Source: Crossaster papposus
Lineage: Eukaryota; Echinodermata; Asteroidea; Velatida; Solasteridae
Assembly: GCA_037893245.1 (NCBI GenBank)
Contig: JBAIAA010000886.1
Span: 799,272-863,271, forward strand
DNA: 64,000 nt
Direction of reading: 5' to 3'
Both the position numbers and the translations under genes were made by a program. This document shows positions 16,750-53,085 of the stretch, piece by piece (positions within the stretch are counted from its first letter, which is position 1; each line of letters opens with the position of its first letter). The notes beneath the pieces were generated by a model. The model was given only the letters and a program-made list of their open reading frames with translations, did no database searches and was not told the DNA's origin.

Positions 16750-16874
16750 AGTTATGCTTCCCCCATAATAACCTCGGCAAACTAACACAATCTTTGAGAA
16801 GCAACGGGTGGCGTTCACGGGCGTTTACAATCATGATAGATACATGTTTATTGATACCTTGTTTATTGCTAATC
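16750..16874 (+). promoter_or_regulatory. Upstream region of homeobox gene A, shared with gene C
   Basis: The block with ATAATAACCTCGGCAAAC, then GAAGCAACGGGTGGCGTT, just before gene A's start recurs at 21705-21790 upstream of gene C (ATAATAACCACGGCAAACAC, GAAACAACGGGTGGCGTT). Conservation between two tandem genes with little other flank similarity suggests shared promoter or 5' leader sequence. No TATA box is apparent. Confidence 0.55.
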
Positions 16875-19800
16875 ATGTCTTCTCAAAAATGCGACGAAGG
16901 TACGTGTGCTTCCGTTTTTTTGAATCAGAATCATCCTGTAATGTCGATCCTTATTTCAAGGAAACAATTTGACGCTCTGTCTTTCTTTTAACATGTTGGA
17001 AAACTTATTACTTGTGCATTTCATTACAGGCGCCGGTCCATCCGGGCTGGGCCAGCGCGGGGACGATGGAAGTCCCCGTCGGACGTGCAGATTCCGGGCC
17101 GAGACGGCTGAAATTTTAGATGCCGCCTGGGTCAGCCACGACAACCGATACCCGTCGGTGGATGCGGAGATAAAGGCATTGGCGGCTGCCACCTGCATTT
17201 GCGAAAAAATTGTCAGGGTGAGTATTCTTCTCATTCTCTTCGTTCAACTATTAACGGTACATCGTTTTGTTGGCGAATTTTTAAATCATTTACCAGGGGT
17301 TTCCCTTAACTTTTTTTTTCAGTGGCCCGCCGGGCTACCTAATTAGAGTTTTCAGTCGCCCGCAAGCATTTTCAGTGGCCACGTGTGCATTTGCCATATC
17401 TGTGTTTTCCACCGAGGTTACGCAACGCCAACTGCATTGTCCGACCTTCCGGGCCGCGAAAGCGCGCCGCGCGTTCGGGAAAATTGCGGCACGGCACGGC
17501 ACTTTACAGCCCACTGCTTGTTGTAATCGCTGATCTTGCGGGAAGATTTAATTTGCATCCGCCACAAAAGCTATCAAAACTAAACCTCACCTGTGACAAC
17601 AAAACTGGCGGAGTTATTGTAAAAGCATATTAAATGTTTAAGGTTGAAAACTTTTTGGGGAAAAAACCGGAGAATGTTGGCCTAAATCTTTCACACGATT
17701 AACGCCGAGCTGACCAACACACCACACAAGCGTAAACTGAATGCAGGAAACATGCCGCGGTAGAACATTTTGTAGAAACACGCTGCATCGCTCAAGAAGG
17801 ACAAGCGTTACTACCTCGAAAGAAATACATTAACAGAAAATAAAAAAATAGGAAAGGGCGACCATGATCTGATAATTAACCTGCAGGATATGACTTTCTT
17901 CATTGACGTTTGTTTGCCGGGCATTTTTACATCTTACGATGTCAAATTCGACCATTTCGCGTAACGGAAAAATACATGCATGTCGGCCATGGACTGGTTT
18001 CGGTCCTTAACTTTGTCCATTGAAGCGTGCGGCGGAAACCAATCCTAGAATGCGCCTGCATTATGAATGCATTGCATGGGGCGAGCACATGGCTTTTTGG
18101 CACCATCACCGTTTTTACGTACGCTTGCGGTAGTACACGTATGTATGTGTGCCGCGCTAGTCTTGGTGCAAGACGTTCTTGTTCAGTTAGTAAAACCATA
18201 AAACCATAGGACCTATGCACTCAACACTATACGCGTCGCGACTATTCCACCAATAGAGGGCGTATTCTGGAAGCCGCGAATCTGTCAAGAAGATAGACCG
18301 AGCCGATGTGGGTGGTTATCTGGAGGTTTCCCAACAGCGCCCTCTATTGTTTGATAGTCGCGATAGTTGCGTGAAAATGAACAACAACGTCTTGCACCAA
18401 GACTAGTGCCGCCCAGGCCATGTGCGCCAATGTATGCGCTAGCTATAGCAAGCCGGCCATAAACATCGCGAATCTGTATATATACAGGAATGACACGATC
18501 ATATCTCTGCACTGTTGTGTAAAGGTACTGCTGTACATGTACATAATTATGTACATGTACTGGTAAACAGTTGATCTGGGAAATCACATGTAATGTATTT
18601 AATATTTTAACTCGCCGGCCGGACGACCGAGGGAAGTTTTTGAGTCGTCCGTGGCTGTTTTGGGTCGCATTTGGCGAGCGGGCGACCGCTAAGGGGAAAC
18701 CCTGATTTACTACCGAATTGTTTGGATTAACGCTAATTTAATATTACGCTAGTAACTGTTATAAAACAACAGCTGCCCCTCGATCGTTTTGTTTATTCGA
18801 CCGGGCGTTAGAGTCATTTGCAGGTACGTGCGGGCGGTTAGGGAGTACCGGTCATGTTTCCCGAGATCTGAATGTGGTCAAATGAATAATTAAAATAAAA
18901 CGATTGAATTTTTTGTCCATTTTTTTTATATATAAACTACAACCGCCCGCCCCGCCCGCCCGCCCGCCGTTATTCCTTCCTCCATGCTACAGTCAAACCT
19001 GCCATTGCGGCCACCTTGATACAGCGGCCACCTGGCTTAACTGGCCACCTTTGCTTGGTCCCAGTTTGATTCTTGCATAAACATACCATAACCATTTCTG
19101 CTAATGCGGCCACTGCGTAACGCGGCCAGTGGCCAACCCATAATAGCCCACAGCAAATAACATGTGTACAATTACATTGCCGTGAAACCTGTGTACTCCG
19201 GCCGCAGAAATGAAGTGCGCCCTCTGTTGACTTTGAAATCTCCCCTGTTGTTTGGTTCCTGGACTTCATACATGTACATGTATGGGTGTGTGTACATGTG
19301 TACGTCTTGCTATAGTGGCCACGAAAACCGGCACCGTCGATGGCCGCTATATCAAGGTTTGACTGTAGTTACAACTTTTGCTTTCAATTCAAACTGAAAT
19401 TTTAGTTTCGGGAGTGTCGAATTATTTACCGAGACATCCGTGCGTGGTGACAAATGTGACATCTCCAATTTCTTAACCGCCTCCTTTTTTTTTGCTGCCC
19501 TTCCCGTAATGTTCCAAATCGACGATGTCGTGGCTAAAATTTCTAAAATTGTTTGGTGGGTGGGTGGGTGGGTGGCTGGCTGGCTGGCTGTTAATACAAC
19601 CCACAACCAAATGCAGTTGAAACACAGACAGATCCTAAACCAGCTTTAGGTACATTCAAACTGTTTGTAGATACAATCTACATCCAGCCCGCCCGCCCGC
19701 CGCGTCGGTAGATCGGATTAGTACTGTTGTACAACAGCAGCTTTACCTGCTGCTGCTGTTTACGCATACAATATTTTATCCGTTTTTTGTTTTTTCAATT

Positions 19801-19973
19801 GCCTTCCTCAGAATTGGTTCTCCAACCGGCGTTTTCGTCAAAAGAGAAAGGAGCAGGTTGGGCCGCCGCCCATAACTAACCCACCGCCGACGCCGTCTAC
19901 AAGCAGCCGGGACGTTGGAACGCAGACTTCTGTCTTCGACCGCCTGCAGCCGCCCCTTGCCCGCCGGGAGTAG
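16875..19973 (+). CDS. Homeobox gene A, divergent, 124 residues, three exons
   Basis: Exons are 16875-16899 (ATG, donor GTACGT), 17030-17217 (acceptor CATTACAG, donor GTGAGT) and 19812-19973 (acceptor CTTCCTCAG, stop TAG). Phases match (1, then 0) and the total is 375 nt. Residues ~26-84 form a homeodomain. Helix 1 holds TAEILDAAW, helix 2 YPSVDAEIKALAAAT, and helix 3 in exon 3 NWFSNRRFRQKRK with the invariant W, F, N and R. The intron falls between positions equivalent to 46 and 47, the usual PRD-class site. The spacing from helix 1 Leu16 to Trp48 is 35, three more than canonical, as in TALE homeodomains. The tail is proline-rich and ends in DVGTQTSV. It is likely a nuclear DNA-binding regulator; target and class are uncertain. 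Intron 2 (2.6 kb) carries a foldback element and a pogo-type MITE. Confidence 0.75.
18128..18460. mobile_element. Foldback element in gene A intron 2
   Basis: Arms around CTAGTCTTGGTGCAAGACGT (18150-18182) and its inverse ACGTCTTGCACCAAGACTAG (18386-18405) enclose two inverted copies of a CGCGACTAT...TAGAGGGCG sequence. The whole ~300 bp can fold back on itself. No coding capacity. Confidence 0.65.
18990..19365 (+). mobile_element. Pogo/Tigger-like MITE
   Basis: The ends CAGTCAAACCT and AGGTTTGACTG are perfectly inverted and flanked by TA on each side, the target duplication of Tc1/mariner-pogo elements. The inside contains repeated GCGGCCAC words and no transposase. It sits in gene A's second intron. 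Confidence 0.8.
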
Positions 19974-20313
19974 GGACCGTCGACCCCGCCGGCCATTTTT
20001 TAAATAGTTTATGACAAGTCTTGTGTAGACCCCGGCGGCCGGCCGGTCATCCTTGGACCGCCTGCAGCCGCCCTGTGAAGCCGTCCATTTGTTAATTTGT
20101 TTTAAAAGTTTTTATTGGTTCAATGTTACCCAACACCTTTACTCAGCTATTTAGCACTTTTCCCCCAATTAAACCTTTTTTTAAAAAGCATACTCCTGGC
20201 CAGTAACATGGACGCGAATCCCAATTTTACTCCCACCTTCTTTATTCATTTTTTTTTTAAATGACAGTTATTAAATTAAGATTACAATTTGTTTCAAATA
20301 CTTTTTCATTTAA

Positions 20314-20680
20314 AGGTAGTATACACCATTGGTAATTTGTTTAATTATCAGGAATGGGTGGATTTGGGGGGTTGTATTTTATAGTAAATATCGTTTAATT
20401 GACCTGTCCGAAATTTTACATTCATGGATGCCGAGAAAAGCATGAAAAACAGCGTTTGTTTTCCACCGGCGTCGAGCAGTTATTCTTATGTTATCTTTGT
20501 TTTTTCGAGCTCGCCGGACGGCGAGAATGCATTTTGGTTTATACAATTCAATTTTTGGGAACAATTACAGGATATGTAGGGCCCTCATTTTGCTGGATGC
20601 CTACAATCATTATTTACTTTTAAATAAGTAAGAATTTTTCCTAATAATTCGGTAGTAATTTTTTTTGAAATATTGTCCAC
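20314..20680 (-). mobile_element. MITE family 1, copy c (inverted)
   Basis: Begins AAAGGTAGTATACACCATTG and runs through the reverse complement of the family landmarks (GGTGGATTTGGGGGGTTGTA, ACAGGATATGTAGGGC, AATAATTCGGTAGTAAT). The distal end is degraded. Confidence 0.8.
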
Positions 20681-20689
20681 ATACATTTT

Positions 20690-20890
20690 GTAACTTCAAA
20701 CCTAAATAATACAAAAGAAGAAAATATGAGACAAATGAGTCGTGCGTCCTTATTACTGTCGCGGCCGTTTTAAGATTTTTTGGTTTAATAATACCCCCAC
20801 AAAGAATAATAACAATCCTGGTGTTTAATTAGTACTTCGACGATGGCGGCGGTTTAAATGTTATTCATCCCCGCTGTGTAATTAATGCCC
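20690..20890 (+). repeat. Conserved 3' flank of a homeobox unit (after A)
   Basis: Landmarks in order: AATACAAAAGAAGAAAATATG, GAGTCGTGCGTC, CCCCCACAAAGAATAATAACA and GTTTAAATGTTAT. The same series recurs at 23320-23500 (after C), 27270-27435 (after D) and 30310-30475. This marks the trailing part of the ancestral tandem unit and may include the polyadenylation region. Confidence 0.7.
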
Positions 20891-21362
20891 TTTCTTGCCG
20901 TACCACTATCGAGCTATTGTCGATCGTCGTATACTAAAGCATATGCGTGCGAGTTGCAAGTCAGTATCTCGGACTTTATTTCCCTTTAAAAAAGTATTAT
21001 TTTATTAAAATATAATATTTAAAACATTTTTATCATACTGTCTTGCTTTTGTCAATATTGTTGATGGTTTTTTTTTAAACCGGCCGTGTATAATACAATT
21101 ACTAGTTTAAATTTCCTTTTTTTCAAATAAACCGCCGATTAAATACGAACGCGGAACAACAACAACGTCGACACAATGAAAAAGGATCTCGATGTAACCA
21201 TTGAGTCGCCATAACCTAGTAACCAATGCCGACATATTAATAGACACCTTAATAGATACTGTGTGTATGTAAAATAAGTTACATTCATCGGCGAATTGTT
21301 CAGCTTTACCACCTGTTGACGCAAACCAAATTTTATCAATTGTTTTTCATGACCTTCCTCAG

Positions 21363-21485
21363 ACTTGGTTCACGAACAGAAACAGACGGTCCCGTCGGGG
21401 ACAGGAGAATCGAGCGCCTGGTGCGGCCGCGCCGGAAACCGAGGCACGCCAGCATGCGGATGTTGGGACCCAGACTTCGGTGTAG
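21363..21485 (+). pseudogene. Homeobox unit B: orphan third exon
   Basis: An acceptor (GACCTTCCTCAG) identical in style to those of A, C and D opens a 41-codon frame ending in TAG. It starts with TWFTNRNRRSRRGQEN, homeodomain helix 3 with W48, F49 and N51 kept but Arg53 replaced by Asn. It ends in DVGTQTSV, the same tail as gene A. The intron sequence before it (CAGCTTTACC, CTGTTGACGCAAAC) matches the other copies, and the sequence after it has the shared 3' UTR words CGACCTGTTCAAACGGAATC. No helix 1-2 exon is present between 19974 and 21362, so this is a truncated tandem copy. It could still be used by alternative splicing to gene A's second exon, since the splice phase (0) matches. Confidence 0.65.
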
Positions 21486-21699
21486 GACCGCCTATGTACA
21501 TCACATTTCCCGCCCATAAGAGACGAACGACTTTCTTGACGTATTATTGGCGCTACTGTCAATGCGGAATCGCGACCTGTTCAAACGGAATCCGGACCAA
21601 GTCGCTCCATGTTTGTAACATAATTTTACTGGGTTCAAAAAGACCTTATTTGTCGTCTTGGTGCGGGTTTAGTTTGAATTGGTCGCCGTGTTAATGCTT

Positions 21700-22078
21700 G
21701 TGCTTCACCTATAATAACCACGGCAAACACAATTTGTGAGAAACAACGGGTGGCGTTTACAATAACGACAGGGTCAGGTTTTAGTGATACCTTGTCGAGA
21801 CGTGGTGCCGCCTCTAGACGTATATACGAATTCGCTCGTACCCAAACAAAATTGTGTAAACATTATTTCAGTCAATCACCTTAGACAGATCCCTGCCCAC
21901 GGGTACGTACGGGTACCCGTATGCCGGAGCAGGGCGTACGTAGATGTATAGAATGTGCGTGCACTCAGTTACTGCAAACTCGTACGTGCAACTCAACTTC
22001 ACTTCGATACTTTCAATTCAGCCGGACAACACTTCTTCATCCAACACGCCAAAACATATAAAAATTGATACCTCCAGC
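21700..22078 (+). promoter_or_regulatory. Upstream region of homeobox gene C
   Basis: Shares GAAACAACGGGTGGCGTT and its neighbours with the region before gene A. A further word, GAGCAGGGCGTACGTAGA (about 21926-21943), recurs at 46524-46540 ahead of the distant relic at 46704. These are candidate shared control elements. No TATA box is obvious. Confidence 0.5.
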
Positions 22079-22786
22079 ATGTCGGGTATGTTTCCTTTCT
22101 TTTTGGATAACCTGAATCTTCCTTTGATGGTCATTACTTCTTTGAAAGACTTTGATGTGTTTTTTTTCATGAAATGTTTTGCTTTTTGCTTTTTCCATTC
22201 AATGAGTGTCCGGATTATCAGACGCTTCGGGTCATGTTGAGCGTAACCCACCTGTCGCCGGGTTCGGCCAGCAACCGCCCCGGCGTACAACCAGGAACCT
22301 GACCAGGCTCACATCTGACCATTTGATGGTTTTGCACGATTGGTATGAACAGTGCTGTTACCCTTGCTACGACGATCGTCTAACCTTGGCAGCTATTACC
22401 GGTCTGACCGAAGACTGCGTCAGGGTGAGTTTTATTATTTTTCATTTTTTCCCGAAAAGCGTTCCTTTAACCACCCCAAAAAGTGATATGTAATAACATA
22501 ATAATAATTGTTTATGTTATATATATATAAAATCTACATGCATCGGTAGAGCGACGTGTGCAGCTTTACCTGTTGACCCTACCCTTTACCTGTTGACGCA
22601 AACAATATTTAATTAATTGTTTAACATTACCTTCCTCAGACTTGGTTTAAAAACCGAAGGTTTCGGCAACGAAATACACCTGCACAGGAGGCTGAAGCTA
22701 CACCGTCCGTAGACACCTCCACACGGCGGGATGTCGCCTGCCAGACTTCGGCGGTGGAGTTCTGGCTGCCTTCAAGAACGACCTAA
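22079..22786 (+). CDS. Homeobox gene C, PRD-like K50 type, 123 residues
   Basis: Exons are 22079-22085 (ATG TCG G, donor GTATGT), 22207-22424 (donor GTGAGT) and 22640-22786 (acceptor CTTCCTCAG, stop TAA). Coding length is 372 nt with matching phases. The homeodomain spans residues 30-89 with canonical 60-residue spacing: Leu16 and Tyr20 in helix 1, YP at 25-26, LTLAAITGLTEDCVR in helices 2-3, then TWFKNRRFRQR. Lys50 is the base-recognition residue of Otx/Gsc/Pitx-type PRD proteins, and the intron at 46/47 is the PRD-class position. The tail contains RRDVACQTSAVEFW, shared with D. There is no paired domain and almost no other sequence, so the protein is little more than a homeodomain. It is probably a nuclear transcription factor. 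It is the best preserved member of the cluster. Class assignment beyond 'PRD-like' is not safe without a tree. Confidence 0.85.
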
Positions 22787-23320
22787 AGATGCGACCCTAA
22801 CCCACCTCATCTATACCGTGACCTGTTCCAACTGAATCTTGAATTAGTAACACCATGTTTTTAACTTTTTTTTCTTTTCTTTTCCTTCTAATTACAACCC
22901 AAATACCAAACTAAACAATTTTTCGACTTCGTGAGGGTTTCGTTGGAGCAGGTCATATTATTTATCCCATATTTATATTTTTTTTAAACTCTTAAAAGTT
23001 CGTTATATATTTTTTTTTTTTTGGTCATCCGTTCTTTTGCTAATCTAAATCTAATGAACACCCCCCTCCATTTTTGTAAGTTTTCTTTGTGTTTTTTTTA
23101 AAGTTATAAGTGTGTACCGGGGGGTATTTATTTAGTGTGATTCAAATTATGTACATATCACTTGATACAAAATCAATAATATCCCACCACCACCCCCCCC
23201 CCCCCCCCCCCCCCCCTTTCATATTTTTATATTTATCTTTTTATTATTTTTTCATTTTGCTTTCTTAGTATTTATAAATATTTAATTATTTGTTTTTACT
23301 TGTATACCAGTCTTTTTAAG
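22787..23320 (+). other. 3' UTR and flank of gene C, with poly-C
   Basis: Words such as GTGACCTGTTCCAACTGAAT and GGTTTCGTTGGAGCAGGTCA are repeated after gene D (26566-26710), so the 3' UTR is conserved between copies. A long C run lies at about 23191-23216. Confidence 0.6.
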
Positions 23321-23500
23321 AAATATAAGATAATACGAGACAAATGATTCATGAGTCGTGTGTCGTTAACATTATTTATGAAATTATTTAATGTACCCGT
23401 TTCGGAATTTATTTTCTTCAAACGAGACTCCCACAAAGAACAATAACAATTCCAGATTTCTAATTATGGTTTAACATTTATACATTTAGTGTGAATGAAT
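23320..23500 (+). repeat. Conserved 3' flank of a homeobox unit (after C)
   Basis: Same ordered landmarks as 20690-20890: GAGTCGTGTGTCGTTA, TACCCGTTTCG, CCCACAAAGAACAATAACAAT and CTAATTATGGTTTAA. The copy after D is closer to this one than to the copy after A. Confidence 0.7.
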
Positions 23501-24320
23501 GCCGTTTTTGGCCGTCTTCTTAGTTGTCAACTATTTGTGTCCTAAAAAAGATACGCATAAGTGAGACCGGACCTTTATGTAGCTAGCTTTGCAATAGTTT
23601 TTGTGGCTTCTCGAAAATCAAACAATGTTGAAAGAGTGATTGGACCTTGACCAATAATGGCGCCCTCTTGGGCTTTAAATCCAACCGTCTGGTGGTCGTG
23701 TCCCCAAACGTTTGAAGCGAGGGGGTCTAACTGATGTACCGACCGACTAACTTTCCTGTTATTTTACGTATCATTTTACGAACCCTGTACCCACGAACCT
23801 AGCTGAATAGTCGTGGAGGAATAGTGCAGTCATCCAAAAGCAGTGGTTCAGGTTGGGACTAATTTGGAAATCACGGCGATGAGTTTTTCAGTACTCGTCT
23901 TCACTGCCACCTGGTGTCTCCACCGTGGTTTTCTTGTTAATTGTCTCTCTTGTGTCAATATTTTGGTGATTTTTGGTGTGATTCGTCTGGTGGTGTGGGC
24001 GACCGAATACAGCACCCGTGCAGTTCAGTTCCGGTCGTGTCCCCCATTCCCCGTTTACGTACGCAAACTTTTTGTAATCTTGTCTGTTAACATTTTATCC
24101 ATGACATAGAAATATCAATATAATCACATGGACTGTATCAATCATTACATTGTGCATAATTTGCGGCATATGTCACCATATAATATAACGACAATATTAA
24201 TGAATCGTGTGACTATTAAATTGGAGGATTTTGAACTGATGCGCAGCGTTGTAACCAAAATTTGTTATAGGGTCAGAGAATATTCATCGCCACAATAATT
24301 AATTGAAACATATGATATTT
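23501..24320. other. Spacer between homeobox units C and D
   Basis: No recognisable exon. An 88-codon open frame at 23843-24109 is hydrophobic but has no supporting signal. Confidence 0.4.
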
Positions 24321-24329
24321 TACTGCTTT

Positions 24330-25437
24330 ACAATTACAGAGCTTTGTGAAATCAACCGGCAAGATGTCATCAAAGGCCCATCCTCAAATGAACTGCGCTC
24401 TCCGGTTCAACCCGGAACGACCTGTGTTTCAATTTCGGAAAGGCATGGAAGAGTTACACAGCCATTTGATTGTACACAGACACACCAAGCCTGCAAACGT
24501 GACACAAGGCGACATGACACGACCCCATTCAAAACCACTTTTGTGTCAATTCCGCTTGGTTTAATTCAAAATTAAACAGTGGCAGGACCATCGACTGGTG
24601 CATTCAGCCGTTACGCTTTTTTGTTTCAGATCGTATTGCTTTTAAAGAGTTTCGGGCCTTTACAAACATTGCTGTCAATGAATTTCTTACTCTTTTGTGC
24701 AATAATTTGTACCTGCAGATCCCATAGGATTGCCGATTATTGCGTTTCACAGCTGATGATGAGTAAAACAACTCGATTTACGAACACCTTTGGAACAATC
24801 TGCTGGAAAGCCTCCAGGATGATATGGTCAAGTACAAGAACCCATCAGATATTCAGGTGTGTCATGTAAATTATTGTATTGAACACTTTAACTGCTGCCA
24901 TTGTCGGCGGTTAACGTGTAAAAACCCTCTATCGATATGGACCGACAATCGCTGGGACTCTACCCTTGAAGGCCATTGCCGCGACAAGTCTATCTATGAT
25001 GCTTGGCGCAACAACAGCAGCCAGCTAAAACTGGTAAGAAAACCATTTACGTCTTTGATGTCTTTGGAGCTCTTATACATAGCTCTAACCTGCAGGATGT
25101 CATCGAAGGCCAATCCTCAGCTGAACTGACCTGTCTGATACCATCCGGAACGACCTGTGTTTCAATTTTTGAAATGCATGGAAGAGCTACACAGCCATGG
25201 GATTGTACACCGAGACAACAAGCCTGCAAATGTGCTGCTGGGTTAGGTCAAGTGTTTAGTTCTTATCTCGTATGTTTCCCAACACACCCCAACAAAAATA
25301 CTAATGACATCACATGACTTGACACGAGACAACTCGTCACGAGATGATCAAGATTACACAAGGCGACATGACCCGACCCAATGTTTCAGATCGTTTTGAT
25401 TTTAAAGAGTTTCGGGCCTTTACAAACATTGTCGGGT
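24330..25437 (+). pseudogene. Two tandem fragments of a protein kinase
   Basis: Block 1 (about 24346-24680) and block 2 (about 25090-25437) share the same order of sequences. The second carries MEELHSHGIVHRD, then NKPANVLL, which is the protein-kinase catalytic loop HRDxKxxN. The first reads HSHLIVHRHTKPAN and has lost the catalytic Asp. Both have stops or frame breaks soon after. Upstream text in both is similar (SSKA-PQ-N, then PERPVFQF). Each block ends with a shared TTTCAGATCGT...TTTACAAACATT sequence, which in block 2 runs straight into homeobox unit D's first splice donor. No ATP-binding lobe or DFG motif is seen, so neither can be an active kinase. Between the blocks, 24690-25080 has open text (SIWTDNRWDSTLEGHC) that I do not recognise. 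Confidence 0.6.
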
Positions 25438-26421
25438 ATGTTTCCTTCTTTTTTTACAACCTGAATCATCCTTTAATGATCATTATTTCTTTGAAAGACT
25501 TTGATGTTTTGTTTTTCCAGTGTCCGGATCATCTGCTGGTGTGGACCATAAACCAGTCGCCGGGTACGGCCAGCGGCCGTCCCGGTGTACTATCAGGACC
25601 AGGCTCAACGCCGACCAATTTTCTATTCTGGACTGTTCGTTTGTTGAGTGTCTAGTAAATACCCATCTTTTGAAGAGCGTCTGGAATTAGCAGCTTTAAC
25701 CGGCCTCAGCAAAGACTGTGTTAGGGTGAGTTTTATTAGTTTTCATTGTTATTTTTTTGCAGAAAAGCGTTTGTTTGACCACACCAAAAATGGATATATA
25801 ATAATATAATTCTCATTGTTTATGTTCAACTATTAAAGGTAGGATACATCATTTTTTGGCAGACATTTCGAATTATTTACCGGTACTACCGAATTATTTG
25901 GAAAAATCTTACTCATCTGAAAGTAAACAATTATTGTAGGCATCCAGCAAAATAATTGCGCTAGATATTCTTTAATTATCTTGAACAATGTAATTTTCAA
26001 ACAAAAATTTCTTGACTAACATAAGAATAACTGCTCGTACCAGGTTGAGTAGAAACGCTGTTTTTCGCCCTTTTCTCCGCATCCATGATTTTAAAACATT
26101 GGACATGTCAGTGAAACGAATTAACAACAATGATGAAATGATATTTGACCATTGAGGCGGAATTATAAATATATATATATAAAATCTACATCCATCGGTA
26201 GAGCGAAGTGTACAGCTTTACCTGTTGACGCAAACAATATTTTATCAAATGTTTACCATTACCTTCCTCAGACTTGGTTCAAGAACCGAAGGTTTCGGCA
26301 ACGCCGAAATACACCTGCACAGGAGGCTCAAGCTTCACCGTCCGTGGACACCTCGACACGGCGGGATGTCGCCTCCCAGACTTCGGCGGTCGAGTTCTGG
26401 CTGCTTCCAAGAATGATATAA
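25429..26421 (+). pseudogene. Homeobox unit D, broken copy closest to gene C
   Basis: Exon positions mirror gene C: 25429-25435 (TTG TCG G where C has ATG TCG G), 25521-25725 (donor GTGAGT) and 26272-26421 (acceptor CTTCCTCAG, stop at 26419-26421). Exon 2 reads RTRLNADQFSILDCSFVEC, then five extra bases shift the frame, after which KYPSFEERLELAALTGLSKD and CVR follow. Exon 3 begins TWFKNRRFRQRRNTPAQE and keeps RRDVASQTSAVEFW. So helix 3 is intact, with Lys50, but the start codon is gone and the homeodomain is out of frame. Intron 2 contains MITE family 1 copy d. The upstream region is replaced by the kinase-derived block, whose frame could read through into exon 2 until the frameshift. It could be a pseudogene or, if the five bases are an error, a chimeric gene. 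Confidence 0.75.
25837..26135 (+). mobile_element. MITE family 1, copy d, inside unit D intron 2
   Basis: Left end AAAGGTAGGATACATCATTT preceded by TT, with landmarks AATTGCGCTAGATATTC and ACATAAGAATAACTGCTCG. The right end is degraded around 26130. Gene C's intron lacks it, so it was inserted after the C/D split. Confidence 0.75.
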
Positions 26422-26439
26422 AGATGCGACGTCACCTCA

Positions 26440-26549
26440 CCTCACAGGAGGGTCAATCGTCACGGTCCGTGGACACCTTGACACGGCGGGATGCCGCTAC
26501 ACAGACTTCGGCGGTCGAGTACTGGCTGGTTTCCCGACTGCAATAGATA
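26440..26549 (+). pseudogene. Partial tandem duplicate of unit D third exon
   Basis: Immediately after D's stop, the second half of exon 3 is repeated with changes: CACAGGAG, then SVDTLTRRDAATQTSAVEYW, ending at a TAG. It lacks helix 3. Gene A shows a similar trace, since its last-exon word GACCGCCTGCAGCCGCCC recurs about 100 bp downstream near 20059. Confidence 0.65.
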
Positions 26550-27269
26550 CGACGTCACCTCACCTACCCTGACCTGTTCCAACTGAATCTGGACGAAGTC
26601 ACACAATGTTTTTAACAATTTTTATTCATTTTGTTTCCTTCTAATAACAACCATAATCCAAAACTACAAAATTTGTCGACTTCGTGCGGGTTTCGTTGGA
26701 GCAGGTCACATTATTTATCCCATATTTATTTTCTAAAAAACTCTTGCTTTGTGTTATGTTCGTTTTATTTTTATTTTATTTTTTTCATTCATTCTTTTGA
26801 TAATCTAACTCAAACAACAATCAATGAACATTCTCCCCCCCCCCTTTGTAAGTTTTCCTTGTTTTCTTTTTTGATTTAGAAGTGTCTATTTATTGTGTGC
26901 ACACATACGTGCAGAAGCACGGTACAGCCGTTCACGAGCTTTGTCCACCGAGGATGACAGCTTCACGTGCGTGTGCCATGTTTCGGCCAAATATTACCCA
27001 CAACGCGGGGCCTGTGAGTCCGGTCGGTCGGGTTAGAAAATGCGAGCTTTTACCATTACTGATCGTGCGTATAAGTGCTAGTCGAATATTGTTTCCTTTG
27101 TTCAAATTGATATTTTGTGCGTGATTCAAATTATGTATACAACTTGTTAAAAAAAATCAATAAAATCCCCCCCCTTTTAATTTTTTCTTTTTGTTAATTT
27201 GTTTTGTTCGCTTTTCATTGTTTATAAATATTTAATTTGTTTTTAATTGTATACCAGTTGTTGGGTTAA

Positions 27270-27435
27270 TACAATAAAAGAAAATAGGAGAAAAATGAGT
27301 CGTGTGTCGTTATTATTATCAAACGTACCCGTTTCGAAATATTTTCTTTTAACTAGACCCCCACAAAGAAGAATAACAATTCCTGATTTTCTAATTATGG
27401 TTTAAATGTTATACATTTAGTTTTAATGAATGCTG
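27270..27435 (+). repeat. Conserved 3' flank of a homeobox unit (after D)
   Basis: Contains AATACAATAAAAGAAAATAG, GAGTCGTGTGTCGTTATTAT, CCCCCACAAAGAAGAATAACA and CTAATTATGGTTTAAATG. This is the same series as after A and C. The AATAAAA could be a polyadenylation signal. A second copy at 30310-30475 comes from the 3-kb duplication. A MITE family 1 fragment follows at 27490-27560. Confidence 0.7.
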
Positions 27436-27830
27436 TTTCTGGCCCTCTTCTTTGGTGTCAACTGTTTTTGTCTTTAAAAAGATAGGCAAACAATTCTTGA
27501 TCGCCGTCCGGCTATCGCGAAAAACCAACATAAGAATAACTGCTCGAAACCGTTGCGGAACAAATGAACCATTCCCACGGGCTCACGATCACCTTTCCAT
27601 ACAGCACATGGAAAGGTGTAATGATAACCAGCGATTATATTACTTGGTTAATTGGTATATTTGTTTATGTAACTATGTTCACAGACCATAATCTAACCCC
27701 CTCCCTCCACAAGATCAATTTGGGCAATCTTGCTTAAGGCTATTGTTTGTTATTGCAGGTTGTTTACGACCGACCCCACGCTAAACCCCAACTGGCAACA
27801 CAACGCACGTGGTCACCGGTAGCAACTTCA

Positions 27831-28066
27831 TATATATATATACCAAACTGGGATCTCTTTAGTCTTACCACTTGTACTACGAGACTTCGATAAAGCAACA
27901 TCTCCGTAACGTTAGACGTACATCACACTTACTCTCCGCAATTCCTCTCTTCCCTCACTTGTACTACGAGACTTCGGTAACGCAACATCTCCGTAACGTA
28001 AGACGTACATCACACTTACTCTCCGCAATTCATCTCCTCCCTATTCTCCGCACCGGATAATCGACG
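27831..28066 (+). promoter_or_regulatory. TATA-like promoter and leader exon, copy 1
   Basis: A TATATATATATA run at 27831-27842 is followed after ~25-30 bp by a possible start region (TTTAGTCTTACC). An 87-bp unit beginning CTTGTACTACGAGACTTCG is repeated head to tail at 27871 and 27958. A strong donor (CGACG|GTAAGT) follows at 28067. There is no ATG, so this is taken as a 5' untranslated exon of the gene F copy. The only candidate acceptor nearby (CTTTCTTTCTTTCAG) is at 28387-28401. Confidence 0.6.
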
Positions 28067-28403
28067 GTAAGTCCCCCTTAAAAGATTCTTTTCAAAATAA
28101 AGTCGTTGTTTTGGCACTCGGTGTAGTTCTGATGCAAATTCGGTAGCCTAGGAAAAGTAGAACACCGTGGTATAAAAAAAAAATATATATATAAAAAAAT
28201 TATTTAAAAACCGTACAATCATTAGTTTACAGTAACCGGTTGTTAAAACAATTGATGCGCTTGTTCTTCAGCACTTTGAAACTAACGTCAAAAAAGAAAA
28301 AAATAATTCAACAGCTGAACATTTAATAATCAACATCGGTAATATTTATAATCAACTTATCAAGTGTCAACTGCAGTTTTGTTTTTCTTTCTTTCTTTCA
28401 GAC

Positions 28404-28512
28404 ATGCAATGGCCAGAAGGAGACCAGCTGGCAGGGTCACCCGACCAACCCAGGCCGAGCTGTAATACACCGGCTAAACCAACCAAGAGCGGCGTCCAAT
28501 ACACCGATACCG
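28404..28512 (+). pseudogene. Gene F copy 1, truncated
   Basis: ATG 28404 follows an acceptor CTTTCTTTCAG and reads MQWPEGDQLAGSPDQPRP to a possible donor after ACCG at 28512. The next recognisable gene F exon in copy 1 (acceptor near 29849) is cut by the duplication boundary after ...QRRLETTLQ. The downstream exons needed to complete the protein exist only after copy 2. Promoter and leader exon are intact, so transcripts may still be made. Confidence 0.6.
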
Positions 28513-29034
28513 GTAAAGTCAAGCCTCCGTTTTTTTTCAGAACCACACAAACAAAACGTCATTGCGTATTGTGCAGAAACAATTTGTAAACGACTCGGTA
28601 CACCTTTTCACAAAGGTGTTTTTCCTTCTGACAAACAACGGAAAAACAACAACTCATCTCACGGGTTTTCAGATGCATGCTGCCCGCTCATAAGAACTAT
28701 AATAATATCACGTCGGCACTTTTGTTAATTAATTTCAGTTGCTGTTGGTGTATTTATGATTTCTTCAAACAAATTTACATTTATCTATTAAAACCAAAAA
28801 ATGCAAACGACGGCCCACTTTTCAGTTAGCAACAGATAATGTCATAAAAAGACAATAAGCCTAAATATTTAGGGAGCGTAGCACACAAAAACATAAGCTC
28901 GCATTTTCTATACGTGCATTATGTACCCTAACCCACACACACAGGCTCCGCGTTGTGGGTGATTGTCGGCCTAAACACGGCACACGTTATAAACGCTCGT
29001 GAAGCCGTCATTCTCGGTGATCAAAGGGTGCATG

Positions 29035-29235
29035 CAGATACCGACGGATCAGTTCAATGATATAGAAACGCTCGTGTTTGTGTCTTTGTGTATTTTAAAA
29101 AAAATGCATCGCAGCAGGCATTCAGCTACATCTTTCGAGGCATCGTACGTGCAATCGCGGTATCCGAGTCTGGAAGAACGTTTGCGATTGGCCGATTCGA
29201 CCGGCCTGGACGAGGAAGTGACAAGTATATACTAA
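29035..29235 (+). pseudogene. Homeodomain helix 1-2 relic, copy 1
   Basis: Text PTDQFNDIE (helix 1, with Gln12 and Phe13) and ASYVQSRYPSLEERLRLADS with TGLDEEV (helices 1-2) matches the A/C/D homeodomain pattern, including YP at 25-26. The two parts are separated by about 70 bp. A GT-AG donor after helix 2 is not convincing, since the site reads GTGACAAGTATA. No helix 3 exon follows in the usual place. It lies within an intron of the gene F copy. Its better match to D-like consensus than to A suggests origin from the same cluster. Confidence 0.6.
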
Positions 29236-29566
29236 AAATGCTAGCAATCTGTGGCACCATACCCAAAAAAAATATATATTTCGGTACCAAAACGAATGCC
29301 TAAAGCCCCACAAAATACCAACGTAAAGTTACCTGTACAGTAAACTGCCGTTACCCGGACCGCGGAAGATATGTTTACGCTCTAACGAATCCCCCCCCCC
29401 CCCCCCCCCCGCCATATTAGGAAACAATGAACAAAACAGTGTTTGTTTATTTATGTGATTGTTTAATAAATAATGTCATTTTAATTTTTGCGGGCCAAAT
29501 TTTTTTGGGTGGGGAGGGGGAATGGGAGGGGGGTGTTGTTTAAGACGTTAAGGCAATTTTGATAAT

Positions 29567-29809
29567 TTGTATAAACTAATCAAGAAAAATATTTTAGAGA
29601 TTAATGATTTGTTTTTACGGCACTATACAAATTCCTACAAAGTTAAAGTTGTTATGCAAATTACAAGAGGTTCGTATTATCGATTATTAAAAAGGGGATA
29701 TTCGGACGATACATTTCAACTCGTAATGTCGCCCAAAGTTAATTTAAAAGGCAATTTGGATACAACGACTGTCCCCCCACATGCAGTCATCCAGGCACCA
29801 AAAACATGA
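29567..29809 (+). other. Duplicated 80-codon open frame of unknown nature
   Basis: An intact open frame with the text QITRGSYYRLLKRGYSDDTF ends in TGA at 29809 and is repeated, intact and identical in translation, at 32642-32884. It lies between the homeodomain relic and gene F exon a. It has no splice signals I trust and no known motif. Since the copies are nearly identical overall, intactness in both is weak evidence for coding. Confidence 0.3.
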
Positions 29810-30870
29810 CAAAAAACCGATGTGTTCGGCATTTCTGTTTATATCCATACAGTTTACGACCAACGAATAAAAAACAAGTTAACAAGACGGCTCCAAAAAC
29901 AGCGAAGATTGGAGACCACGCTGCAAATAATTATTGTGTGCACACATACGTGCAGAAGCACGGTACAGCCGTTCACGAGCTTTGTCCACCGAGGATGACA
30001 GCTTCACGTGCGTGTGCCGTGTTTCGGCCAAATATTACCCACAACGCGGGGCCTGTGAGTCCGGTCGGTCGGGTTAGAAAATGCGAGCTTTTACCATTAC
30101 TGATCGTGCGTATAAGTGCTAGTCGAATATTGTTTCCTTTGTTCAAATTGATATTTTGTGCGTGATTCAAATTATGTATACAACTTGTTAAAAAAATCAA
30201 TAAAATCCCCCCCCCCCCCTTTCAAATTTTTCTTTTTGTTAATTTGTTTTGTTCGCTTTTCATTGTTTATATTTAATTTGTTTTTAATTGTATACCAGTT
30301 GTTGGGTTAATACAATAAAAGAAAATAGGAGAAAAATGAGTCGTGTGTCGTTATTATTATCAAACGTACCCGTTTCGAAATATTTTCTTTTAACTAGACC
30401 CCCACAAAGAAGAATAACAATTCCTGATTTTCTAATTATGGTTTAAATGTTATACATTTAGTTTTAATGAATGCTGTTTCTGGCCCTCTTCTTTGGTGTC
30501 AACTGTTTTTGTCTTTAAAAAGATAGGCAAACAATTCTTGATCGCCGTCCGGCTATCGCGAAAAACCAACATAAGAATAACTGCTCGAAACCGTTGCGGA
30601 ACAAATGAACCATTCCCACGGGCTCACGATCACCTTTCCATACAGCACATGGAAAGGTGTAATGATAACCAGCGATTATATTACTTGGTTAATTGGTATA
30701 TTTGTTTATGTAACTATGTTCACAGACCATAATCTAACCCCCTCCCTCCACAAGATCAATTTGGGCAATCTTGCTTAAGGCTATTGTTTGTTATCGCAGG
30801 TTGTTTACGACCGACCCCACGCTAAACCCCAACTGGCAACACAACGCACGTGATCACCGGTAGCAACTTC

Positions 30871-31109
30871 ATATATATATATATACCAAACTGGGATCTC
30901 TTTAGTCTTATCACTTGTACTACGAGACTTCGATAAAGCAACATCTCCGTAACGTTAGACGTACATCACACTTACTCTCCGCAATTCCTCTCTTCCCTCA
31001 CTTGTACTACGAGACTTCGGTAACGCAACATCTCCGTAACGTAAGACGTACATCACACTTACTCTCCGCAATTCATCTCCTCCCTATTCTCCGCACCGGA
31101 TAATCGACG
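30871..31109 (+). promoter_or_regulatory. TATA-like promoter and leader exon of gene F
   Basis: Copy 2 of the element at 27831. The TA run spans 30871-30886, slightly longer than in copy 1. The 87-bp leader repeats begin at 30914 and 31001. The donor CGACG|GTAAGT is at 31110. Confidence 0.6.
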
Positions 31110-31482
31110 GTAAGTCCCCCTTAAAAGATTCTTTTCAAAATAACTCATCTTTAAAAAACCAAAAATAATTTTCAAAACAAAGTCGTTGTTTTGGCACTCG
31201 GTGTAGTTCTGATGCAAATTCGGTAGCCTAGGAAAAGTAGAACACCGTGGTATAAAAAAATATATATATATAAAAAAATTATTTAAAAACCGTACAATCA
31301 TTAGTTTACAGTAACCGGTTGTTAAAACAATTGATGCGCTTGTTCTTCAGCACTTTGAAACTAACGTCAAAAAAGAAAAAAATAATTCAACAGCTGAACA
31401 TTTAATAATCAACATCGGTAATATTTATAATCAACTTATCAAGTGTCAACTGCAGTTTTGTTTTTCTTTCTTTCTTTCAGAC

Positions 31483-34400
31483 ATGCAAATGCCAGAAGGA
31501 GACCAGCTTGCAGGGTCACCCGACCAACCCAGGCCGAGCTGTAATACACCGGCTAAACCGACCAAGAGCGGCGTCCAATACACCGATACCGGTAAAGTCA
31601 AGCCCCCGGTTCTTTTCAGAACCACACAAACAAAACGTCATTGCGTATTGTGCAGAAACAATTTGTAAACGACTCGGTACACCTTTTCACAAAGGTGTTT
31701 TTCCTTCTGACAAACAACGGAAAAACAACAACTCATCTCACGGGTTTTCAGATGCATGCTGCCCGCTCATAAGAACTATAATAATATCACGTCGGCACTT
31801 TTGTTAATTAATTTCAGTTGCTGTTGGTGTATTTATGATTTCTTCAAACAAATTTACATTTATCTATTAAAACCAAAAAATGCAAACGACGGCCCACTTT
31901 TCAGTTAGCAACAGATAATGTCATAAAAAGACAATAAGCCTAAATATTTAGGGAGCGTAGCACACAAAAACATAAGCTCGCATTTTCTATACGTGCATTA
32001 TGTACCCTAACCCACACACACAGGCTCCGCGTTGTGGGTGATTGTTGGCCTAAACACGGCACACGTTATAAACGCTCGTGAAGCCGTCATTCTCGGTGAT
32101 CAAAGGGTGCATGCAGATACCGACGGATCAGTTCAATGATATAGAAACGCTCGTGTTTGTGTCTTTGTGTATTTTTAAAAAATGCATCGCAGCAGGCGTT
32201 CAGCTACATCTTTCGAGGCATCGTACGTGCAATCGCGGTATCCGAGTCTGGAAGAACGTTTGCGATTGGCCGATTCGACCGGCCTGGACGAGGAAGTGAC
32301 AAGTATATACTAAAAATGCTAGCAATCTGTGGCACCATACCCAACAAAAATATATATTTCGGTACCAAAACGAATGCCTAAAGCCCCACAAAATACCAAC
32401 GTAAAGTTACCTGTACAGTAAACTGCCGTTGCCCGGACCGCGGAAGATATGTTTACGCTCTAACGAATCCCCCCCCCCCCCCCCCATATTAAGAAACAAT
32501 GAACAAAACAGTGTTTGTTTATTTATGTGATTGTTTAATAAATAAGGATGTCATTTTAATTTTTGCGGGCCAAATTTTTTTGGGTGGGGAGGGGGAATGG
32601 GAGGGGGGTGTTGTTTAAGACGTTAAGGCAATTTTGATAATTTGTATAAACTAATCAAGAAAAATATTTTAGAGATTAATGATTTGTTTTTACGGCACTA
32701 TACAAATTCCTACAAAGTTAAAGTTGTTATGCAAATTACAAGAGGTTCGTATTATCGATTATTAAAAAGGGGATATTCGGACGATACATTTCAACTCGTA
32801 ATGTCGCCCAAAGTTAATTTAAAAGGCAATTTGGATACAACGACTGTCCCCCCACATGCAGTCATCCAGGCACCAAAAACATGACAAAAAACCGATGTGT
32901 TCGGCATTTCTGTTTATATCCATACAGTTTACGACCAACGAATAAAAAACAAGTTAACAAGACGGCTCCAAAAACAGCGAAGATTGGAGACCACACTGCA
33001 AATAATGAGATCAACCAGCCCACAAAGGGAAAAAATTGGTAAGTCAATTATCAATATGTTAAAAAGGCACAAACACGGGTTAGGATGGTGCCAACGAAAA
33101 AAGATCCTCAAATCCCACCCCCATTTTCCCCCAAAAGATACAACTGTATAACAATAAATAACAAATATATACAGGCGAGAAAGAGTCCCCGCGGGCTAGG
33201 GACCCAACCCCGCCGAGAAACTTACTCCAGACCTTCGACCGGAACGCGGCGCCATCCATCCCGACCAGGAACATGCACGGACCCGCCTGCCCAAAGCGGG
33301 CAAAAACAGGTAAGTCAATTATCAACATCATAAAAACTAACAAACAAGAAGTTTGTTCAGATGCAAGTTTTGCAGGACAATTTTAAAATTAAAAATCTTG
33401 CGAATTTAATTTTAAGGCCCTTTACACGAACGGACGCCAAAATCAAAACCTAACCGCTGCGAAATCGGGTTATGATGGTGCCAACGAAAAAAAAATAGCA
33501 TCAGATCCCCCAAGCCCCATTTTCACCCAAAAGGTACAACTGTATAAAACAATATAACAAATATATATACAGGCTTGAAAGAGGCCCCGCGACCGAGGGA
33601 GCCAACCCCGCATAGAGACGTAATACGCCAGACCCGGGACGAGACCTTCGACCGGAACGCGGCGCCATCCATCCCGACTCTTGACGTTCCGGGACCCGCA
33701 TGCTCAAAGCGGGCAAATACAGGTAAGTCAATTCTCAATATCAAAAAAAGGCACAAACAAAACGTTAGTTGAGATGCAAGTTTGGCACGACAAATTTCTG
33801 AATTAAAAATTCGGTAATTTATTAAATGGCTATTTACATGAACGCACGCCAAAATAAAAACCTAACCCCTGTTAAATCAGGTTACGAAGGTGTTAAGGAA
33901 AAAAGAGCCTCAAATTTCCTCCACCCCCCTTTTCACCATAAAGGTAAAACTATTTAAAAATATATAACAAATAATATATACGCCGAGAGACGTAATAATC
34001 CAGACCCGGGACGAGACCGTAAACCGGGACGCGCAAGCCATCACAACCCGGGACATTACAGGACCCGCATACCCAAAGCTGGAAAAAAATGGTAAGTCAA
34101 TTATCAACATTCTTGCAATTAAAAAATAAAAATAAATCTTTTTTAATGCAATTTTGGATCGAAAAAATTAAAAATAACAACATTGTTAATTTATTTTATG
34201 GCACCATACACGAACGCACGCTAAAATCAAAACCTAAACCCCGTTAACTAGGGGTTATGATGGTGCCAACGAAAAACAAAAATCAAATACCCCCATTCCC
34301 CTTTTCCCCCCAAAAGGTAGAACTGTATAACAAATATATAACAAATATACAGGACAGAAAGATGAACCGCGGCAGAGAGACCCAACAAAACAGCCGAGGA

Positions 34401-35406
34401 ACTTACCAATGACCCGGGACAACGCAATCTACGTAGACGTTGATCAGTCGGAGTCGGAGTCGGAGTCCGCAGATAGCGACGATGCAGCCAGTAATCACCA
34501 AGATGTCGGTGCATGGGTTCAAAACTACCCAACCCGTAAGTGATGCAAACATTTCAAAGACTAAACAAAATATGATGCGTCTTAAAGCAACAAGGCCCGC
34601 CAATGTTCGGATGCAAAATGTTCCCGGTGGTCAAGCGTGAAGAAGTTGTCAAATAAAGTGGCGGTTAACCCCCCCCCCAAAAACAAAATTAAATAAGTAA
34701 AAAAAAAAAAAGAACATGAGGCGTATTCGTATGAGCTATTATGTGAATCTTATTTAATTTTTAAGCCAGGGAAAATTTGAAATAGAACAATTTAAAACGT
34801 CGCGTGTCCTCATTTGCTAATTTGTACCCTTGTCCTCATTTGCTAATTTGTACCCAAACATTCATATTTGTAGTTAGTTTAGATTAAAAAATAAGGTAAT
34901 TTAAATGTATGGTTAAACCTGAAACCTTTTTTTTTTTTTAATTTCCAGTACTTAAATTAACAGTTATTTGTTGGTGTTATTTTGTTTTTGTTTTTTAAGT
35001 TTCTAATTAATTTTTTCTTCTTGTTTATCTTTTTTTGTGTGTGTGTGGTGTAGGCACCGGCCTTAACTTGACTGACAAAATTGTCAGCCGGCGCCAGGTC
35101 TTGTTATCTGAGTTCCCAACCATCTCCTCCAGCGCTCCTGACGGTTTTACACTACCACCCCGGAAGCGGGATTCAGAATCAGCTATGGATAGTACAGACG
35201 AACTTCATCATGATCAAATGGAAGACGATGATAAATTGGACACCGTCGTCCAGGAGATAGGGGGGTGGTCAAGGCCACTCCTCTTACGCCTGGAGCGACG
35301 GGTCAAACAGGCAATCCGGGAAACAACCAACTTGACAAGGGGCAACGCCCATGAGTGCCCCTTTCCGAATTGCTCGCCCGGACGGCCTCTTTGCAAATGT
35401 TTATAA
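31483..35406 (+). CDS. Gene F: novel multi-exon gene with tandemly duplicated exons
   Basis: Proposed coding exons: 31483-31591, a 32928-33038, b 33175-33309, c 33573-33722, e 34353-34535 and f 35054-35406. Every internal junction is phase 1, donors are GTAAG(T/G) or GTAAAG, and acceptors end in ACAG or TAG. The total is 1041 nt, exactly 346 codons plus stop. Exon a is basic (LTRRLQKQRRLETTLQ). Exons b and c are homologous repeats (TFDRNAAPSIPT, GPA-C-KRA). Exon e starts like them, then becomes acidic (SESESESADSDDAAS). Exon f has KLDTVVQEIGG and RLERRVKQAIRETTN, then HECP, the start of a C2H2-like finger lost to a one-base shift (see gene G). It has no recognised family or function. A fourth unit, d (33981-34091), keeps the frame and donor but has lost its acceptor. 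The protein looks largely disordered and may be nuclear. Confidence 0.6.
32116..32315 (+). pseudogene. Homeodomain helix 1-2 relic, copy 2
   Basis: Same as 29035-29235, but the T/A run between the two helix parts is one base shorter. The frame joining PTDQFNDIE to the YPSLEERL part therefore differs between copies. This shows that the spacer is not under reading-frame constraint. It lies within gene F's first coding intron. Confidence 0.6.
33076..34540 (+). repeat. ~390-bp tandem exon-intron repeat of gene F
   Basis: Four units each contain an intron tail (GGTGCCAACGAAAAA, CCTCAAAT, ACAACTGTATAACA, ATATACAG), an exon (b, c, d or e) and an intron head (GGTAAGTCAATT(A/C)TCAA). Exon starts b and c are 398 bp apart, and c and e are two units (780 bp) apart. 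In unit d about 40 bp around the acceptor are deleted. Symmetric phase 1-1 exons let such duplication extend the protein without frame change. Confidence 0.8.
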
Positions 35407-39289: not shown

Positions 39290-39373
39290 TGGAAATTTGG
39301 TTTGGTCCAAAAAGTAAAATCCAATTTTCTGCTAGCAGAAATTTGGAAATTTGGTTTGGTCCAAAAAGTAAAA
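39290..39373 (+). repeat. Short direct repeat at the LINE 5' boundary
   Basis: GAAATTTGGTTTGGTCCAAA with AAGTAAAA occurs at 39290-39318 and again at 39345-39373, just before the LINE sequence begins. It may have arisen when the element was inserted. Confidence 0.5.
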
Positions 39374-52699: not shown

Positions 52700-52727
52700 C
52701 AGTTACAACAGATATTGAGTGGTCTTA

Positions 52728-53085
52728 GAGATACACCATTGGTTATTGCTTGAATTATCATGAATGGTTAGATTAGGGGTGTTTAATTTACCGGTACCTG
52801 TCCAAAGTTTTACAATCATAGATGCCGAGAAAAGCACAAAAAACATCGTTTGTTTTCAACCGATGTTGAGCAGTTATTCTTATGTTATCTTTGTTTTTTT
52901 CCCGATCGTACGATGGTGATCGCGAATTTTTCTTTATAAAATTAAATTTTTCAGAATAATTACAGGATATGTAGGGCAATCATTTATCTGGATGCCTAGA
53001 ATCATTATTTACTTTCAAATGAGTAAGATATTTCTTAATAATTCGGTAGTAAATATTTTTAATATGCAAATGGTGTATCCTACCT
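52728..53085 (-). mobile_element. MITE family 1, copy f (inverted)
   Basis: Starts AGATACACCATTGGTTATTG and ends TGGTGTATCCTACCTTTATA. Internal text is the reverse complement of the family landmarks (ACAGGATATGTAGGGC, AATAATTCGGTAGTAAAT). Confidence 0.85.

Follow-up and report, generated by a model that had tools for sequence, protein, structure and literature searches.

Homeobox genes are usually single-copy and slow-evolving. The stretch of DNA analysed here (the window) comprises 64,000 nucleotides at the end of contig C886, positions 799272-863271 of 863271, in an assembly of 1.02 Gb and 1841 contigs, and it carries a compact series of small homeobox genes and relics, labelled A to F, on the forward strand (Table 1). 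We consider it likely that these genes belong to a large PRD-class homeobox family that was amplified recently in an ambulacrarian genome, probably that of an echinoderm.

Genes A and C each consist of three exons, whose predicted splicing gives 124 aa in A (Pfam Homeodomain E 2.3e-8) and 123 aa in C. Their first introns (16899/17030 in A, 22085/22207 in C) are in phase 1, and their second introns (17217/19812 and 22424/22640) are in phase 0 and follow homeodomain residue 46. Both homeodomains carry W48, F49, N51 and R53. Exon 2 of gene A has a loop insertion of 2 residues relative to C, and it has 100% matches at C886:380241, C886:515987 and C1260:293354. The block upstream of the two genes is 73% identical over 112 columns by self-BLAST, and at 105 of 131 ungapped columns in a local alignment.

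The exons stand out in a scan of the window in six frames (2736 pieces) with a hidden Markov model (HMM) built from 39 known homeodomains. The top eight pieces are all cluster exons, namely exon 2 of C, F, E, D and A, and exon 3 of C, A and D. The ninth (10170-10337, E 0.15) is taken as chance, and the tenth is exon 3 of B (E 0.56). The best piece reaches 31.1 bits, against a maximum of 11.4 across 30 simulated windows, which were first-order Markov sequences rather than exact shuffles; the ranking and the simulations rule out chance homeobox matches. The initial annotation had described four third exons (A, B, C and D), all of which are present, together with a partial extra copy, D2. The helix 1-2 exons or relics that it assigned to A, C, D and a duplicated pair (E and F) are those at the top of the scan, the splice junctions that it named for A and C exist in the sequence with GT-AG ends, the common intron point is the 46/47 cut in A and C, and spliced C, which it took for a homeodomain protein, matches Pfam Homeodomain at E 4.4e-13.

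Table 1. Features of the homeobox cluster in the window (positions counted from the first letter of the window)
Feature	Position	Strand	Remarks
Upstream block common to A and C	16752..16862; C copy 21698-21795	+	Putative promoter
Gene A exon 1	16875..16899	+	ATG, phase 1
Gene A exon 2	17030..17217	+	N-arm, helices 1-2
Gene A exon 3	19812..19973	+	Helix 3, residue 50 = Ser, DVGTQTS tail, stop
B, lone exon 3	21363..21485	+	Residue 50 = Thr; terminal exon of two-homeobox-type gene
Gene C exon 1	22079..22085	+	ATGTCGG, phase 1; protein start MSVSG
Gene C exon 2	22207..22424	+	N-arm, helices 1-2; variable exon
Gene C intron 2	22425..22639	+	Near-identical in several copies on different contigs
Gene C exon 3	22640..22786	+	Helix 3, residue 50 = Lys, DVACQTS tail, stop
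D exon-1 relic	25429..25435	+	TTGTCGG; start codon lost where upstream repeat joins
D exon 2	25521..25725	+	Frameshift between helix 1 and helix 2
D exon 3	26272..26421	+	Open; DNA 91% identical to that of C
D2, partial extra exon 3	26438..26546	+	DAATQTS tail
Tandem duplication unit E, 3 kb	26887..29931	+	97.3% identity to F (self-BLAST)
E exon	29104..29232	+	Helix 1-2 relic, alpha (first-homeobox) type
Tandem duplication unit F, 3 kb	29928..33006	+	Self-BLAST
F exon	32182..32310	+	Copy of E exon

The remaining members are a lone exon (B), a broken gene (D) and relics (E and F). The stop codon of B, TAG, falls earlier than in its sister copies at C886:421470, 561339 and 720750, and no helix 1-2 exon for B was found in the window. 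Exon 3 of D has Lys at residue 50, as in C, and the D homeodomain, with X at the frameshift, is matched by Pfam at E 1.9e-13. A tail closely resembling that of D2 ends an intact gene (L024) at C886:400.2 kb. The open reading frame (ORF) of E alone matches Pfam Homeodomain (E 1.3e-5), and the E and F exons are without a consensus donor. E and B belong to a two-homeobox type of gene, which the earlier description had overlooked.

Searched with C, the genome yields 122 matches, a figure that includes ordinary homeobox genes and counts exons individually. Since several matches come in equal pairs on two contigs, both haplotypes seem to be partly present, and family copy counts may exceed those of one haplotype. 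Twenty-nine C-type loci were modelled; a thirtieth, L043 on C1126, had no single-gene mapping and was handled separately. All 29 have GT-AG at both introns and a phase 0 intron at 46/47. Reading frames are open in 27 and encode 14 distinct proteins. The typical product has 114-124 aa, with few residues before its single homeodomain and a short tail after it. WFKNRR is kept in all 27 intact proteins, and the tail motif D-V-x-x-Q-T is conserved, with D-A in one copy. Thirteen consecutive C-type units form a tandem array with steps of ~1,353 bp at C886:383.9-400.4 kb. Among 11 of these units compared base by base (the last, L024, has a different tail and was excluded), 4 of 1353 positions vary; two of the four are coding, and both are replacements. 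Exon 2 of the A type has 11 genome matches at ≥81 bits, and modules of A, B and C lie at C886 380, 516 and 816 kb (the last being the window) and at C1260 293-288 kb. The lineage-specific, fast-evolving array of ~120-residue proteins with little but a homeodomain, proposed from the window, is thus borne out on a genome scale that exceeds the window's.

Two further loci were noticed on other contigs. At C311:173600-243512 (L097) there are 16 weak matches to the two-homeobox query, in steps of 3.4-5.0 kb; the one that was read is a truncated helix 1-2 exon of the beta type, in which the 5' part has been replaced and the donor frame is as usual (AAATGLGVECMR|VSLSNF), and the series is probably another array of homeobox relics. 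At C162:2333501-2335100 (L045), there are two copies of a helix 1-2 exon and an exon 3 from a D-like member with an altered helix 3 (TWLKNKRF).

The intron point and the less diverged members support placement of the family in the PRD class. An intron at 46/47 (nt 139) is present in 31 of 33 PRD homeoboxes of Nematostella, and the same source describes introns within homeoboxes as labile in Bilateria (PMC1779571). Against class HMMs built from reference homeodomains, the best class is PRD for the members on C53 (PRD 55.8 versus LIM 49.9) and C959, for both alpha rows, for C1126b and, narrowly, for C (PRD 44.6 versus SIX 43.0); it is LIM for beta245 and TALE for A (28.8, with SIX at 27.6 and PRD at 26.8). 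The PRD class, to which the initial annotation had pointed by the intron, is supported by that intron and by the less diverged members; A is ambiguous and C comes close to SIX. An origin from SIX or TALE was rejected, as the less diverged members and the intron point favour PRD. Among single-homeodomain PDB chains, PBX/Exd is the best match of A. A genome search with an alpha homeodomain, aimed at a parent of the family among ordinary PRD genes, gave 109 matches, which beyond the family are mixed homeobox genes.

The phylum was judged from Hox content. The homeoboxes of contig C431 are, in order, what we take by eye to be Hox1, 2, 3, 4, 5, 7, 8, 9/10 and 11/13a, b and c. By family signatures, this is presumably a cluster of 11 genes with 11/13b inverted, Evx added and Hox6 missing. 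Three Hox11/13 genes are a likely ambulacrarian trait, and loss of Hox4 is confirmed for echinoids and holothuroids only (PMC4066700). We regard the animal, with moderate confidence, as an echinoderm from the asteroid or crinoid side.

Within that phylum, the genes could possibly be a far-diverged branch of the pmar1/hbox12/micro1-phb PRD family, which is also tandem-arrayed and early-acting; we regard this alternative as tentative. The sea urchin genes and the phb genes of asteroids and ophiuroids resemble the present family in being echinoderm, PRD-type, copy-rich and fast-evolving, and they expand in tandem and act early (PMC5370098, PMC11310086, PMC8505446). However, the genes of P. lividus have two exons and one intron, as against three exons here, and between urchin species the coding parts are conserved and the noncoding parts diverged, the reverse of the contrast between copies in this genome; two-homeobox members are not mentioned in the sections of that paper available to us (PMC5370098). 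The ETCHbox genes of eutherians (TPRX, LEUTX, ARGFX, DPRX) are likewise divergent PRD genes with tandem arrays, conversion and loss (PMC8208926). In TPRX, conversion is strongest on the homeobox side, whereas in the present family homogenisation is weakest in the helix 1-2 exon.

This exon behaves differently from the other parts. When C is compared with D, 62 of 201 sites in exon 2 are different, as against 32 of 279 intron sites (~0.125 corrected; Fisher 2e-7), and divergence peaks inside exon 2 (22216-22408, 59 of 175 sites; 0 of 1000 permutations). Nonsynonymous divergence in exon 2 (dN 0.30) is lower than synonymous divergence (dS 0.61), with dN > dS in 1.85% of 2000 bootstraps, which argues that exon 2 of C and D was long under coding constraint; dS in exon 3 is 0.19. 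Across nine distinct C-type sequences, nucleotide diversity reaches 0.116 in exon 2, compared with 0.069 in intron 1, 0.066 in exon 3 and 0.015 in intron 2; for the seven C886-like sequences, the corresponding values are 0.073, 0.065, 0.012 and 0.005. In all 36 pairs, exon 2 is more divergent than intron 2 (28 of them at p<0.01), although the pairs are not independent. For example, C886_426 and C1260_91 differ at 1 of 339 intron sites and at 20 of 218 sites in exon 2. Intron 2 of gene C shows 0-5 differences over 203-219 sites among copies on C886, C927, C1260 and C567, and 28 differences over 205 sites from C245_370; its predicted RNA fold is mildly stable (z -2.30), and the intron may itself be constrained. 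Intron 1 is not homogenised in most C-type pairs. The conserved parts of the family are helix 3 and the tail DVxxQTS. Between A and B, the tail motif has 4 synonymous and 0 replacement changes in 7 codons, and helix 3 has replacement differences.

We favour the explanation that conversion homogenises the rest of the gene, with exon 2 retaining or importing older variants, because replacement and synonymous changes are both raised in exon 2. The diversity of exon 2 is perhaps also under selection for difference. Plain positive selection on helices 1-2, with no conversion of the remaining gene, seems unlikely to account for the pattern. It would fit the close C-type pairs, in which exon 2 changes are mainly replacements (e.g., S 0-1 versus N 3-4), and the array units, in which both coding differences are replacements. 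But synonymous change in exon 2 lies far above the introns (C/D dS 0.61 versus ~0.125), and selection on the protein alone is disfavoured because it should leave synonymous change unraised.

Other members of the family carry two homeoboxes. The gene on C1126 runs in frame from ATG through exon 1, exon 2, a fused exon and a last exon to give 186 aa, with three introns, all GT-AG, and two homeodomain stretches (Pfam) with N51 in both. Its two copies of intron 2 agree at 224 of 227 sites, and its first and second homeodomains (HD1 and HD2) agree in their helix 1-2 parts at 118 of 134 aligned sites (88%), so the doubling appears to be local. The fused exon joins helix 3 of one homeodomain to helices 1-2 of the next. 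Such exons occur at C1126, at C513, at C245/C711/C959, and at C886/C927/C1260 (B-type), with four different linkers among the loci; because the linkers differ, at least three of the joins look independent. C245 and C711 have the fused exon and the last exon, and C245 also has an HD1 exon 2 upstream. C959 has HD1 exon 2 and the fused exon, with no last exon within the stretch examined, and the 7.1 kb examined at C513 showed no HD1 exon 2 and no last exon. C191 carries the unfused form of the C513 exon with its own acceptor, and from there on ~1.9 kb are 95.4% identical. The B-type copies at C886 420, 561 and 720 kb and on C927 and C1260 have fused internal exons.

An intronless copy of this type of gene lies at C344:791287-791721 as a 145-codon frame with two homeodomain stretches, and C197 carries a counterpart 99% alike in protein. 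It links an exon like that of E, through a fused internal exon, to one like B, with the joins at residues 46/47. Its first piece (53 nt) is 96% identical to E of the window (29169-29221), the second (164 nt) matches the C886:720072 exon at 97%, and the third (346 nt) matches the C886:720750 exon with its 3' side, also at 97%; the terminal part, aligned over 323 columns with B and its 3' side, is 93.8% identical in DNA. Directly after the copy comes what looks by eye like a reverse transcriptase of the long interspersed nuclear element (LINE) type, and neither a poly-A tail nor a target duplication was established at the copy. We read the frame as a processed copy, which would imply transcription in the germ line. 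Because it joins the exons at the 46/47 junctions, transcripts of the E-like and B-like type were probably spliced there in the germ line. Exons of the family are thus seen joined at the intron point given in the initial annotation.

Processing of this kind bears on whether the family is mostly a dead repeat, that is, homeobox genes carried in a spreading tandem repeat, alike by recombination and with no present function. We hold this to be improbable. The broken copies in the window and elsewhere, the near-identical 1,353-bp units, the additional run of truncated exons on C311 and the mainly replacement changes in exon 2 of close pairs would all suit a dead repeat. On the other side stand the 27 open loci among the 29 modelled and their uniform GT-AG ends, the lower dN than dS between C and D, the A/B tail motif kept through synonymous change, and the spliced intronless copy.

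The closest known comparison for the two-homeobox genes is the mammalian DUX family of the PRD class (DUXA/B/C, Duxbl, DUX4; PMC3141429, PMC2211742). C1126, like DUX, has two homeoboxes in one open gene, whereas A and C of the window are single, and an intron lies at the same position inside each homeobox in C1126 and C245. In DUX, however, intron 3 separates helix 3 of HD1 from helices 1-2 of HD2, whereas a single exon holds both parts in C1126, C513, C245 and the B-type copies; furthermore, the doublings here look local and repeated, most members have a single homeobox, and the phylum is another. Leidenroth & Hewitt (2010) proposed that DUX arose through a deletion joining two tandem single-homeobox (sDUX) genes into a fused exon, and they reported no double-homeobox DUX gene outside placental mammals (PMC3004920). 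The joined exon predicted by this model is present in C1126 and C513, and C191 has the C513 exon in its unjoined form, the differences being an echinoderm-like genome in place of a mammal and several linkers. Three linked homeoboxes of Nematostella were put forward by Ryan et al. as a tentative DUX-like locus, not a demonstrated one (PMC1779571). No report of an echinoderm double-homeobox gene was among the papers listed in literature searches, which is not proof of absence.

We propose, as a reading on which the evidence is evenly balanced, that two-homeobox genes have been born repeatedly here, and are still being born, by the tandem-copy deletion suggested for DUX. The fusions, which differ in their linkers, would then number at least three of independent origin, of which one is complete (C1126) and one still has its single-homeobox counterpart beside it in the genome (C191 for C513). 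The same reading would take in the macrosatellite-like units, the intronless copy and selection that keeps the helix 1-2 exon diverse against conversion. If true, this would be a close parallel to DUX/D4Z4 in another phylum. That the two-homeobox members are instead orthologues of mammalian DUX, descended from an ancient double-homeobox gene, is very improbable: A, C and the alignment find their highest-ranking PDB matches in two-homeobox DUX4 chains, but only through two summed domains (single DUX4 domains give A and C 16-22 bits, below Pitx2), the HD1 and HD2 exons of C1126 are too alike, a fused exon takes the place of DUX intron 3, and DUX4 is not grouped with the family in a tree that does not settle placement.

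Several points weigh against the account of the family that we consider likely. In the window, B, D, E and F are broken or incomplete, and among the C-type loci L027 and L039 carry stops. The uniformity of the array could come from recombination alone. The C245 gene has Arg instead of Asn51 in each helix 3, and three of its exons are seen, with no exon 1 found. Two of the five B-type internal exons contain a stop, and for three B-type genes there is no first-homeobox exon within 3.0-5.6 kb upstream. In the nine-sequence set, exon 3 (0.066) is as diverse as intron 1 (0.069), and C53_1657, C959_303 (long intron 2) and C245_370 were left out of the test of exon 2 against intron 2. The tree does not settle the placement of the family, its single DUX4 row falling outside. 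Among 5.8 billion proteins, in a search constrained by shared words and length, there were no relatives of C at E≤0.001 (3 candidates), nor of the four-row alignment A1 at E≤1 (908 candidates). Finally, the tail lacks Lys(-3) and the acidic +2 of the LC8 motif considered below.

As to how the system may work, copies would exchange sequence by conversion, and fusions would have arisen repeatedly where neighbouring copies were joined in frame. The proteins may be DNA-binding regulators of the germline or early embryo, which is the weakest step. Because they have no room for a large effector domain, they would most likely occupy or compete for PRD-type sites, or pair through the tail motif. The copy number of the array could set the dose, and the diversity of exon 2 and residue 50 (S, T and K in the window) could tune binding. 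The tail partly fits the anchor of LC8 (DYNLL), whose motif is given as [D/S]-K-x-[T/V/I]-Q-[T/V]-[D/E] (PMC3078936): D(-4), Q0 and T(+1) are present, and position -1 is T, C or S.

The interest of the locus is that it may represent an arrayed PRD-class family in which part of the homeodomain itself changes fastest and two-homeobox genes are caught at several stages of their formation. The origin suggested for DUX would then become testable in living sequence, and it may be asked why PRD genes of distant phyla repeatedly turn into array genes.

Beyond the cluster, transfer RNA and Rfam scans of the window gave no matches. Two related multi-exon genes with frame breaks lie at 33176-35403 and 57309-58219. 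They have a common last exon (LTDKIVSRRQ.../LTEQIVSQRQ...), which by eye ends in a C2H2-like zinc-finger sequence; the first gene contains tandem similar small exons at 33.1-34.4 kb (~72% alike by self-BLAST), and a similar-looking piece precedes the B-type copy at C927:81 kb. A short repeat with ends near GGTAGTATACACCATTGG occurs at 20391-20657 and 25884-26119 (self-BLAST) and at ~52700-53100 (by eye), and is perhaps a miniature inverted-repeat transposable element. An ORF at 39372-40298 encodes a non-LTR (long terminal repeat) reverse transcriptase (Pfam RVT_1, E 3.6e-7); it has 6906 protein hits, and among the 120 listed the two that carry an organism name are from fish, which does not inform on the taxon. 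An ORF at 60555-60893 matches DUF1280 (E 2.6e-6), and a long repetitive ORF at 62715-63866 is built of units of ~12 residues (PPPSPIVDREDA).

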